Positions 21,915 through 29,408 of a stretch of 32,698 bases of DNA are shown in pieces. The notes under the pieces are model-generated. The model was not told the DNA's origin. It searched no databases and was given only the letters and a program-made list of their open reading frames with translations. Source of the DNA: a virus; IMG/VR virus record IMGVR_UViG_3300018420_000059, positions 1-32,698 of that record. One strand, 5' to 3'. The stretch's first letter is position 1. Each line of letters begins with the position of its first letter. The position numbers were made by a program, and so were the translations under genes.

Positions 21915-22454
21915 CTATGAACTCATTAAACTTTCTTGCTTGTGGAAAAGATAGGGTTCCCAATCAGGGTGAATGTTAGTATATTGTAGGAATTTTGTGC
22001 TTTTTGTATTGAGTTGATAGTAACTTGGTTGTACTGGAGGGTTGATGGGTGTTATAGTTGTTTTGTTGGACTTGGCGGTATTACATTTTCTACATGCGGT
22101 GGTACAGTTTGTCCAGTTTGTTCTGCCACCGTGACTCCGGGGTACCACATGATCTATAGTTAAGTCGCATTGCCGGAATTCTTCAAAGCAATATTGACAT
22201 CGGAAATTATCCCGAAGGAACAAGTTACGACGAGTAAACTTTGCCAGTGGCGGTAGTTTGTGCCAGCGTTTAAGCATAACAATAACAGGCATAGGCATCT
22301 CAAAACTAGGACTGTGTAAGATACGATCTTCGTTGCTTTTTACTATGATGACTTTTTCCTGGAAATATGCTTTAACTGCGCTCTGCCACGTGATTGTACT
22401 GAGTGGTAATAGGCTAAGTGGCTGGCTGTCAGCATTAAGTAATAACACGCTCAT
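21915..22454 (-). CDS. Free-standing HNH endonuclease
   Basis: 179 residues. The N-terminal half (VLLLNADSQPLSLLPLSTITW ... ILHSPSFEMPMP) matches a widespread bacterial/phage HNH family with this N-terminal region. The nuclease core is at about residues 86-130: FRCQYC, then LTIDHVVPRSHGG, W-x-N, and ACRKCNTAKSN. The two CxxC pairs bind zinc and the DH histidine is the metal-activating residue; all key positions are intact. It lies between the lysozyme-like gene and gp25, inside a structural block, a typical site for a homing-type nuclease. A housekeeping role such as DNA packaging is an alternative. A late octamer ends 4 bases before its ATG. The stop is TAG. Confidence 0.88.
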   Translation of the reverse strand: MSVLLLNADSQPLSLLPLSTITWQSAVKAYFQEKVIIVKSNEDRILHSPSFEMPMPVIVMLKRWHKLPPLAKFTRRNLFLRDNFRCQYCFEEFRQCDLTIDHVVPRSHGGRTNWTNCTTACRKCNTAKSNKTTITPINPPVQPSYYQLNTKSTKFLQYTNIHPDWEPYLFHKQESLMSS

Positions 22455-26305: not shown

Positions 26306-26587
26306 TTATGAGAACTGTTTAGGTACACGGATCTCTAGACCCGATTTAAAATCAATGATAGGATCTTTGAGAGTATCTTGGTTGTATTCAGCAAAAATCC
26401 ACCAAAGTTTAGCATTACCGTATAAATCGTATGCTAGTTTGTCCGGTCTTTGATCGTACTTGGATTCTAATGTCATAGTTTTTGTATCTGATGAACGAAT
26501 AGTGTCTACAGTTGGAACCATAATGTCCAAGTACTTATTGTCAATAACTGGTGTGTTTCTGTACATGCTGTTTGAATCGTAAGCCAT
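26306..26587 (-). CDS. gp53: Baseplate wedge subunit gp53 (short)
   Basis: 93 residues. The core KYDQRPDKLAYDLYGNAKLWW, then AEYNQDTLKDPIIDFKSG and IRVPKQFS, is the gp53/LysM-like domain pattern. It is much shorter than T4 gp53 (196) and seems to keep only this LysM-like part plus a short N-terminal arm (YRNTPVIDNKYLDIM). gp53 clamps the wedge core of gp6, gp7 and gp25 in T4. The start overlaps the gp48 stop by one base (TAATG); AAGGA lies upstream. Confidence 0.9.
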   Translation of the reverse strand: MAYDSNSMYRNTPVIDNKYLDIMVPTVDTIRSSDTKTMTLESKYDQRPDKLAYDLYGNAKLWWIFAEYNQDTLKDPIIDFKSGLEIRVPKQFS

Positions 26588-27888
26588 TATGGATATCCTT
26601 TATATAAAACTGAGCCTTGCATATAATCGTCCCAATTCCATTCAGTACGGACTTTAGTTGGAACTGTTTGTACTGTTAATCCTAGGCTTACCATAAACAA
26701 TGTTGGAATATAACTAGCACCACCAGGAACATCTTTTGTTTCATTGAAAAATTCTGTTCCCTGGTTAACCTGATTTTGCGTTTCGTTTAATTTGTCGCTT
26801 TTTTGTTTCTGATAACCAGCCTGTAGATCATAAAAGTCTCCCAGGTAAACCCAGCCTTCTTTGTTAAACACCATTCCAACATAGTCAGTATCTTCAGGGT
26901 AAGTGAAGTTTACATTTCTAATAACCACTGGTGTGTTTTTAAAGTTAAGAGCACCATACGCACTAAACCTTAACACAGGCGGTGGAGTGCCAGCATTTTC
27001 ATTTCTAGAACCATCTGGATTATTTTGACCAAACTGACTTTTTACCATACTCTTTAAAAAGTGTAGTGCTGCCATAGTATGTGCGGCATCTTTTTGTGTG
27101 TTGGCAGTAAACATAGCAGTCATATCAATCTGCGGATTCTGTGTATTCATATAATATTGTTGTTGATAAACGCTGTGCGTTAAATCGTAACTGCCATAAG
27201 CCGCTCCATGTCCCATATTGATAGTAGGAGTATAAGGAAACTCCAGTATCATGTGAGTACCTGTTGGATTTAACAATGGTTGTAGGAAACCTCGCTGTGC
27301 TTGTGTAATATAACTAGGCAATGACCATACTAGTTTTACTTTTTCAGTACCTTCAATACCGACACCTTCAGTTCTAGTTGGTCCGCCTAACACGCCTCTG
27401 TCTTCTAGAGCCCTTTGTGGAATAATCTCGTTTTTTACTATTTCTGTTGCTCTATCAGCTGCAGCTTCTTTTTCTCTCTTTGCTTTTTCTTCGTCTTGTT
27501 TTTTCTGTTCAGCAGTTTTTCCGGTAAAAAAGCCAACTTCTGCTTCGTCTGCCTGATTTACACCTTCTGCTACTCCGCCTTCCTGATCTGTTGTGGTTGG
27601 TTCTGGTTTTGGTTTAGGCGGTGGATCTGCAGGAACGTTTTCGTCCTCGATCCATTTTTTCATATTTTTTAAAAAATTCTTCTTGGCTTCGTGATCGTCT
27701 TCTTTGATCCATCTGTTAACGCCTAGGAACCTGTCTGGGTTTTCCGCATAAAATTCCTCCGCTTCTTCAGGAGTCATATTAACAAATTTTGTTACACCTT
27801 TGTCATTTTTGATAGCAACAGGATAGTTTTTACCTTTACGTCGCATCTGCATGGCTTTCGGTTTATTTGAAAATCCACCACTAGCCAT
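26587..27888 (-). CDS. gp48: Baseplate tail tube cap gp48, with charged N-terminal extension
   Basis: 433 residues. The C-terminal 260 residues carry the cyanophage-type gp48 pattern: LEFPYTPTINMGHGAAYGSY, then LTHSVYQQQ, an MTAMFTANT strand, AALHFLKSMVKSQFG, TPPPVLRFSAYG and a final beta segment FMVSLGLTVQTVPTKVR. gp48 sits on the hub and starts tail-tube polymerisation. The first 165 residues differ: a lysine-rich part (RRKGKNYPVAIKN), an acidic helical part, a proline-rich linker (DPPPKPKPEP) and a K/E-rich coil (AEQKKQDEEKAKREKEAAAD). The ATG at 27888 has a strong GGAGG site and shares one base with the previous stop. Confidence 0.88.
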   Translation of the reverse strand: MASGGFSNKPKAMQMRRKGKNYPVAIKNDKGVTKFVNMTPEEAEEFYAENPDRFLGVNRWIKEDDHEAKKNFLKNMKKWIEDENVPADPPPKPKPEPTTTDQEGGVAEGVNQADEAEVGFFTGKTAEQKKQDEEKAKREKEAAADRATEIVKNEIIPQRALEDRGVLGGPTRTEGVGIEGTEKVKLVWSLPSYITQAQRGFLQPLLNPTGTHMILEFPYTPTINMGHGAAYGSYDLTHSVYQQQYYMNTQNPQIDMTAMFTANTQKDAAHTMAALHFLKSMVKSQFGQNNPDGSRNENAGTPPPVLRFSAYGALNFKNTPVVIRNVNFTYPEDTDYVGMVFNKEGWVYLGDFYDLQAGYQKQKSDKLNETQNQVNQGTEFFNETKDVPGGASYIPTLFMVSLGLTVQTVPTKVRTEWNWDDYMQGSVLYKGYP

Positions 27889-28484
27889 TATTTGCCTCCA
27901 AGTTTATTGTTAACAAAGTCAAACACTTGTTGATCAAATTTACCAAAGAAATCAGTAAATGCTTTTTGTTTGTCTTCTTCCGGAGCATCACTACGCATAA
28001 CATTACGGAAATCCGTAGCACTACGGCCCGCATCTTTAATAGGCACAGTGTACACATAACCAGCCTCATCTGCTGTTAGCATTGGCTCACCTTTTTCCAC
28101 TGTGTCTTTCCACCATTTTAGATATCCCATTTTCAATCTGTTAGCGTCCTTTTCACCATACACCAGCACTAATGCTGTTTTAGTTGGATCTTTGCCCGCT
28201 TTGGTCATGTCAACATTGTACGGATGGGTGTTAATAATATGATCAGCAGGTATGCCAAACATTTGTGTCATTAGCATTGCTTTCTCATCAAACGAGAACG
28301 GATCACGTTCCGGCTCTGCTTTCTTGCCCACCATAGTGCTGATAAATACACGGTCACTACCAAACTTCTGGACTAGATCCTGATATACCTGGTAATGGCC
28401 ATTATGCATAGGCTGGAATCTTCCGCCATAGAACACTATCAAGTCAGTAGTGGGTGCTTCTGTTATGATGTCAGTAATTCGCAT
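27888..28484 (-). CDS. Nucleotidyltransferase, NMN adenylyltransferase-like, with capsid-targeting-like leader
   Basis: 198 residues. GGRFQPMHNGHYQVYQDL (residues 20-37) is the H-x-G-H motif of the cytidylyltransferase-like superfamily. RDPFSFDEKAMLM resembles the N-P-F-T-x-x-E-R-x-x-M-I of NadM-type NMN adenylyltransferases, and GRSATDFRNVM matches the I-S-x-T-x-x-R signature that holds ATP phosphates. It would join a nucleotide to NMN or a related phosphate to form NAD or an activated metabolite. Related enzymes occur in marine T4-likes. The first residues MRITDIITEA resemble T4 capsid-targeting leaders cut after I/L-x-E by the prohead protease. It is the first gene after a late octamer (28507-28514) with GGAG before the ATG, so it is expected late, with virion genes. 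Confidence 0.82.
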   Translation of the reverse strand: MRITDIITEAPTTDLIVFYGGRFQPMHNGHYQVYQDLVQKFGSDRVFISTMVGKKAEPERDPFSFDEKAMLMTQMFGIPADHIINTHPYNVDMTKAGKDPTKTALVLVYGEKDANRLKMGYLKWWKDTVEKGEPMLTADEAGYVYTVPIKDAGRSATDFRNVMRSDAPEEDKQKAFTDFFGKFDQQVFDFVNNKLGGK

Positions 28485-28506
28485 TCAGTTGTTCTCCGTA
28501 ATACTT

Positions 28507-28514
28507 GTATTTAG
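28507..28514 (-). promoter_or_regulatory. Late promoter octamer CTAAATAC heading the structural block
   Basis: Minus-strand CTAAATAC lies 22 bases before the ATG at 28484, with ACGGAG between. It would start the leftward transcript of the adenylyltransferase and baseplate genes. Confidence 0.7.
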
Positions 28515-28528
28515 TTGAAAAAAACCAC

Positions 28529-28580: not shown

Positions 28581-29408
28581 ATGGCAGTAAACTACCTATC
28601 AAACAAGGAAATACTTAAAGAGATACACAATTCAAAGATGAGTTACAGTTGGGTTAGAGAAGATCAATACTTCTATTTTGATCATATCATTGATAATATT
28701 AGCGAAATTACACCCAAAAACATTAAAATAGCCAAGGAAAACAGAGCATCAAGACTACAAAAACTAGCACATGATGCTGAAGTTTTACGTTGGGAACGTG
28801 GCGAAACAGGCAAGAAAACCAAGCCCAAGGCCGCAGACTTTGCTGTAAACGTTAAAGACATTCCTGACACTGATGTTGTTTTTAGGCTTATGACTTTTGA
28901 ACATGTACCCAAAGAAGAGCGTAAGAATAATCCAAAAACTGTAGCAGACGAACATGCTAAATGTAACTTTCCACCGTTTCAGCACTATGCTTTTATTGAT
29001 GGAGAGTGGCAAGAAGTAGCAAGAAGTCACTGGGAAGGTGGCAAAGAAAACGGACATTTTTGTACTACACATGGCAAAACCAATGATCGTTTAGCCAGAA
29101 TGTATCTTAAACTTTGCGAACGTTATAGTATGAGAAGTAACTGGCGTGGCTATACCTATGTTGATGAAATGCGTGGACAAGCATTGCTACAACTTAGTCA
29201 AATTGGACTACAATTTAACGAAGCCAAAAGTCAAAACCCATTTGCGTATTATACAGCCGCAATAACAAATAGTTTTACAAGAGTTCTTAACCTAGAAAAA
29301 AGAAGTCAGAATATCAGAGATGACTTACTAGAAGAAAATGGATTGAATCCTAGTTTTACTAGAACATTCAATGCTGAGTGGGAATCACAGCAACAAAATC
29401 ACGACTAA
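28581..29408 (+). CDS. gp55: Late transcription sigma factor gp55 (extended)
   Basis: 275 residues versus 185 in T4. The C-terminal 100 residues hold the sigma region-2-like core: SNWRGYTYVDEMRGQALLQL, then NPFAYYTAAITNSFTRVL and KRSQNIRDDLLEENGL, matching gp55 of marine T4-likes. gp55 replaces host sigma and recognises the TATAAATA-type octamer seen upstream of five genes here. The N-terminal 160 residues are extra: charged helices and a Cys/His-bearing stretch (HAKC at about 123, HFCTTH at about 154-159) that could bind a metal. The T4-style hydrophobic C-terminal clamp-binding tip is not evident; the protein ends in a polar glutamine-rich tail. It starts the rightward operon, under the sigma70-type promoter at 28529. 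Confidence 0.88.
   Translation: MAVNYLSNKEILKEIHNSKMSYSWVREDQYFYFDHIIDNISEITPKNIKIAKENRASRLQKLAHDAEVLRWERGETGKKTKPKAADFAVNVKDIPDTDVVFRLMTFEHVPKEERKNNPKTVADEHAKCNFPPFQHYAFIDGEWQEVARSHWEGGKENGHFCTTHGKTNDRLARMYLKLCERYSMRSNWRGYTYVDEMRGQALLQLSQIGLQFNEAKSQNPFAYYTAAITNSFTRVLNLEKRSQNIRDDLLEENGLNPSFTRTFNAEWESQQQNHD

Follow-up and report, generated by a model that had tools for sequence, protein, structure and literature searches.

A nucleotidyltransferase gene found in a 32.7-kb virus fragment (the window; 32,698 bases, the entire virus record) encodes a short N-terminal leader that ends in the L/I-x-E motif of T4-type capsid-targeting sequences. The best explanation, and one that we consider likely from the conservation of this leader, is that the enzyme is packaged in the phage head, trimmed by a protease and probably injected; a strictly conserved T4-like head-loading tag suggests that the enzyme is carried in the particle and delivered into the host. 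Under this explanation, the gp55-type sigma factor encoded next to the gene would recognise its late promoter, and the enzyme would be expressed together with the structural genes. The nine residues MRITDIITE would act as a capsid-targeting sequence, bringing the enzyme into the prohead core, where a gp21-type prohead protease would cut after Ile-Thr-Glu to leave the mature nucleotidyltransferase (APTTD...) in the head. The mature enzyme would be injected with the DNA and, in the new host, would join a nucleotide to a phosphorylated partner molecule ahead of phage gene expression.

The window carries T4-like wedge, gp46/47-like and gp55-like genes, and its nearest isolates, as judged by the gp6-like protein, are PA5oct- and RaK2-type jumbo myophages (∼37–40% identity). 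The source of the enzyme gene is a marine T4-like phage of an uncultivated clade. Since this fragment contains no head genes, the evidence on the protease and scaffold was taken from relatives. The features of the window that bear on the enzyme are collected in Table 1.

Table 1. Position of the enzyme gene, its signals, its motifs and its neighbours in the window
Feature	Position	Strand	Remarks
Virion structural protein, next gene in the same operon	26587..27888	minus	phrog_12050, E 3e-36
Nucleotidyltransferase gene, 198 aa	27888..28484	minus	ORF confirmed as real
SATDFR, candidate second ATP-binding motif, residues 155-160	28005..28022	minus	S155, A156, F159 and R160 invariant (61 aligned homologues)
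GGRFQPMHNGH, HxGH nucleotidyltransferase motif, residues 20-30	28395..28427	minus	Invariant except residue 28 (61 aligned homologues)
Leader MRITDIITE, residues 1-9	28458..28484	minus	Predicted cut after Glu9, new N-terminus APTTD; [LI]-x-E conserved in homologues; low-confidence AF2 segment
GGAG, Shine-Dalgarno motif of the nucleotidyltransferase gene	28494..28497	minus	
ACTAAATA, T4-type late promoter box	28508..28515	minus	23 nt before the enzyme ATG
Late sigma factor (gp55-like), divergent neighbour	28581..29408	plus	phrog_12791, E 4e-88

The gene and the chemistry of its product

The ORF has an ATG start and 198 codons, and its product begins with MRITDIITEAPTTDLIVFYGGRFQPMHNGH. In the sequence TAATG its stop codon runs into the start codon of the downstream structural gene, and the two genes are probably translationally coupled. 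In 4/4 relatives checked, a gene followed at the same place, and four relatives (G003, G009, G010 and G011) have the arrangement gp46-gp47-gp55 / enzyme–structural genes in common with the window. Elsewhere in the window, an HNH endonuclease gene (21915–22454) was located between the lysozyme-like and gp25-like genes; it occupies the same place in G003 and G009.

Residues 18–93 matched the Pfam model CTP_transf_like (E 1.4e-7; 32.2 bits, above the curated cut-off of 21), and the product was assigned to the HxGH-type nucleotidyltransferases. The AF2 model (mean pLDDT 88.8) showed a Rossmann-type core from residue 14. A preliminary description of this DNA had called the protein NMN-adenylyltransferase-like. 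This held insofar as the best sequence matches and the best solved fold match belonged to the NadM/archaeal NMNAT group, but structures of CoaD (PPAT) and NadD (NaMNAT) came within ∼1.5 Z of NadM in the fold comparison, and the cut-offs of the curated NMNAT models were not reached (best, 32.2 bits against a cut-off of 127 for PRK01153). With PPAT and NaMNAT scoring almost as high as NadM, NMN is an insecure substrate. Further, no NadV, NADAR or Nudix genes were found in the contigs of five relatives, which include contigs of 192 kb and 151 kb and may be incomplete. With no curated NMNAT cut-off reached, CoaD and NadD close and NadV not found in relatives, NAD synthesis is plausible but no more than that; the conversion of NMN and ATP to NAD+ would be the likeliest single reaction of the enzyme, without being a secure one.

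It is about an even question whether the enzyme is packaged but catalyses something other than NAD synthesis, as a cytidylyltransferase or another HxGH adenylyltransferase would; either outcome is compatible with packaging. PHROGs call the relatives cytidyltransferases, CoaD and NadD are structurally near, and NadV was not found in two large relatives, whereas a published survey reported it in every NadM phage (PMC9503650). Against this, the GRFQPxHxGH motif is typical of NadM and archaeal NMNAT, which are also the best sequence matches. Action on NAD at infection is one possible function, though less likely than not. It is doubtful that a widespread uncultivated T4-like clade carries in its heads a preformed, tag-addressed, NAD+-making enzyme that restores NAD+ from the first moment; if it did, NAD+ would be restored before any phage gene was expressed, countering NAD-depleting host defences.

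Conservation and modularity of the leader

Relatives were gathered by two scans of a viral collection, keeping the best 80 matches each time. The pattern M[RK]...[LI]-x-E was found within residues 1–10 in 151/151 intact-start homologues among these matches, bearing out the capsid-targeting-like leader of the preliminary description; the only exceptions among the matches listed were five homologues, all cut by contig ends. The 151 intact-start homologues among the matches listed represent 73 distinct proteins, 46 distinct leader peptides and 59 distinct leader DNAs. Among the 73 distinct proteins from the matches listed, P1 was always Glu (73/73), P3 was Leu in 66 and Ile in 7, and P2 took eight different residues, while P1′ was Asp in 40, Ala in 26, Ser in 4 and another residue in the other three. 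Leader length varied from 8 to 10 residues, with the form of the predicted cleavage site kept across lengths (MRYSQLTE↓A, MRITDIITE↓A and MRYSDIILTE↓D; here and below, arrows mark predicted cuts). The leader therefore sits at the extreme N-terminus, spans about 10 residues and ends in L/I-x-E, as a T4-type capsid-targeting sequence does.

Substitutions at leader positions were counted on a tree for which only the core sequence was used. P3 had undergone 18 codon changes but just two residue changes (Leu/Ile), and P1 no residue changes; P2 and P5 had changed residue 13 and 18 times, respectively. The lack of silent turnover at P1 is uninformative, since its codon is almost only GAA, while the turnover at P3 is informative. 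Cleavage by T4 gp21 follows the rule L/I-x-E. Fixed P3 and P1 positions with a free P2 are the pattern expected of selection for this rule, and the earlier proposal that I-T-E followed by A fits it agrees with the retention of [LI]-x-E in all 73 distinct homologues among the matches listed.

Several observations indicate that the leader is separable from the enzyme. The first ten residues of the AF2 model had a pLDDT of 56, and most solved enzymes aligned from model residue 12–15. The enzymes of RaK2, Ettore, Hallingskeid and S-RSM4, which are deep homologues, have no such leader. In a freshwater branch, 66/73 sequences lacked a matching leader and mostly started directly at the core, while 7/73 carried a leader of another type, with [LI]xE↓[ASDE] immediately before the core; start sites in this branch were assigned with a simple score, and individual assignments may be in error. 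The leader is modular and has been gained or lost, as the deep homologues are without it.

An alternative is that the N-terminal residues belong to the enzyme proper, for instance as a dimerisation or substrate-closure helix, and that the L-x-E match is incidental. Residues 3–7 are predicted to be helical, and in the linker after the predicted cut Ala is conserved at P3′, as is Asp at P5′; these features would suit such a role. We consider it unlikely, however, since the leader varies in length by up to two residues in a segment of low model confidence, residues turn over at P2 and P5 with P3 and P1 alone staying fixed, and the core is where most solved enzymes begin to align and where many homologues begin.

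Late expression, prohead protease and location in the particle

Among the matches listed, a NNTAAATA box was found 17–24 nt upstream of the start in 151/151 homologue genes. Most of these promoters had TATAAATA, the T4 late promoter, at 18 nt. Together with the T4-type box at the window gene, this supports late expression of the enzyme gene, as had been proposed.

The spacing of these boxes was also inspected at other genes. In relatives G009, G010 and G011 and at loci L024–L095, the ATG of 13 distinct genes lay exactly 5 nt after TATAAATA; none in the relatives lay 0–4 or 6–7 nt after it, and a second cluster was seen at 17–23 nt. The gp25-like and HNH genes of the window (21874 and 22454, minus strand) had the same 5-nt spacing behind NATAAATA. 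The T4 late box lies at −13 to −6. If the same holds here, the A of the AUG would be +1 at the 5-nt-spaced genes, making leaderless late mRNAs possible.

Late-promoter genes seemed enriched for M[KR]...[LI]xE leaders (p = 0.0004), but five of the seven belonged to the nucleotidyltransferase family. When this family was excluded, late genes genome-wide showed no enrichment for such leaders (p = 0.26), and a large leader regulon is therefore not claimed. Individual leader-like N-termini were seen in the G010 contig (138577–149000) and the G011 contig (154635–155321), namely MLIEDIITE↓D (103 aa, phrog_727), MKISQIISE↓A (66 aa), MIHKIAKQIIAE↓A (606 aa) and MRLHNLFE↓N (228 aa, with a zeta-toxin/AAA kinase fold). 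These genes are candidates for further internal proteins, the overall enrichment not being significant.

A Peptidase_S77 prohead protease was detected in 12/24 relatives' contigs searched, all of them fragments. The G003 contig, which encodes an enzyme 89% identical to that of the window, is one that carries it. The preliminary description had named conservation of the leader in homologues with a gp21-type protease as a test; the leader proved to be conserved there, including in homologues whose own contigs carry the protease. In four relatives, gp23 shows conservation of a Y-[LI]-x-E↓[ST]-A site; in three relatives, the scaffold gene contained 11–14 [LI]xE sites followed by a small residue, compared with ∼3 in shuffles (about 4-fold). 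One of the scaffold sites, LKE↓D, is conserved and is relevant to the many leaders with Asp at P1′. Judged by sequence, the protease of this lineage appears to use L/I-x-E sites in its head substrates.

The enzyme is encoded first in a baseplate operon, raising the question of whether it might be a tail or baseplate component, with its leader docking there and not in the head. Although operon position and coupling to the structural gene would agree with this, it is quite improbable: the L/I-x-E site is a head-protease signature, and cyanophage virion enzymes encoded outside baseplate operons still keep the leader. A chance match in an ordinary cytoplasmic late enzyme is strongly disfavoured and barely credible, since, although about one gene in ten has such a match ([LI]-x-E in the first 13 residues of 10.5% of genes versus 7.4% of internal windows in two large relatives) and a single match is weak alone, this one gains significance from its conservation in all 151 homologues (73/73 distinct) among the matches listed and from the codon turnover at P3.

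Comparison with cyanophage and T4 systems

A tblastn search with the window protein alone returned six phage records only. The cyanophage branch was reached via a consensus query, which served as a lead only; all cyanophage leaders quoted here come from the database records themselves. In T4-like cyanophages, enzymes of this superfamily have leaders that closely resemble those of T4: they begin with MKSFSQFLTE↓T in P-SSM2, MKKFSAFLTE↓A in Syn33, MKNFNSFLTE↓A in S-B68 and MKRFLQFLSE↓A in DSL-LC02, while the S-CRM01 leader deviates (FFKE). Mass spectrometry has detected the enzymes of S-SCSM1 (PMC9602691), S-CREM2 (PMC10665884) and S-SZBM1 (PMC9146016) in purified virions. Their records show the leaders MKSFLQFLKE↓A, MKNFSSFLTE↓A and MRFRQFIIE↓A, respectively, and the S-CREM2 gene adjoins gp55 and has TATAAATA upstream. 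The virion NMNAT of S-CBWM1 has no such leader. The authors of these studies propose carriage and injection, and also possible co-purification (PMC9602691, PMC10665884, PMC9146016). The leader was unmentioned in the literature searched on capsid targeting with cyanophages, and in PMC10665884.

Published cyanophage proteomes have repeatedly found NMNAT-like virion proteins while leaving contamination possible. A conserved protease-type leader would provide these proteins with a specific means of packaging and a cut site open to testing, would extend that mechanism to a second, uncultivated T4-like clade, and would offer a criterion by which injected enzymes of uncultivated phages could be predicted.

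In two GenBank records the annotated start appears to miss the leader: in S-8S56 (L290) translation from an in-frame GTG further upstream would give MSFFKRVRTILE↓S, and in C48C1 (L296) IKNFSQYLLEE precedes the called start. In Microcystis phage Mel-JY01 (L011, 11243–13162) and at L012 (9926–12328), the nucleotidyltransferase is joined to a long C-terminal part that looks ligase-type by eye (KxDG-like) and has no Pfam hit. An I-A-E↓G motif lies between the two parts in Mel-JY01, possibly marking a cleavable packaged fusion.

The best solved fold match, the bifunctional NMN adenylyltransferase/Nudix enzyme NadM (2r5w, 2qjt), has the GRFQPxHxGH motif in common with the window enzyme, which differs from it in lacking a Nudix domain, in its low identity (16–19%) and in having no accompanying NadV found in the relatives' contigs. 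The enzymes of S-SCSM1, S-CREM2 and S-SZBM1 belong to the same nucleotidyltransferase superfamily and start with the same type of L/I-x-E↓A leader, but are distant in sequence, and most have a low-complexity linker or an extra C-terminal part. A ten-residue sequence is enough for targeting in T4, where positions 4 and 7 are important for this step and positions 8 and 10 for processing (PMC9026906). At 8–10 residues, the family leader is slightly shorter than the T4 sequence of ∼10 residues, and its P1′ is often Asp. The T4 internal proteins are injected defence proteins whose sole common feature is the targeting sequence (PMC3012670). The window enzyme shares with IPI, IPII and IPIII a short N-terminal leader with a basic residue 2 and an L/I-x-E end, a late promoter and a gp21-type protease in the lineage, but its cargo is a metabolic-fold enzyme and its packaging is predicted from sequence. 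T4 Alt is a head-packaged ADP-ribosyltransferase cut by gp21; packaging, trimming and injection are likewise predicted for the window enzyme, which differs in fold and chemistry.
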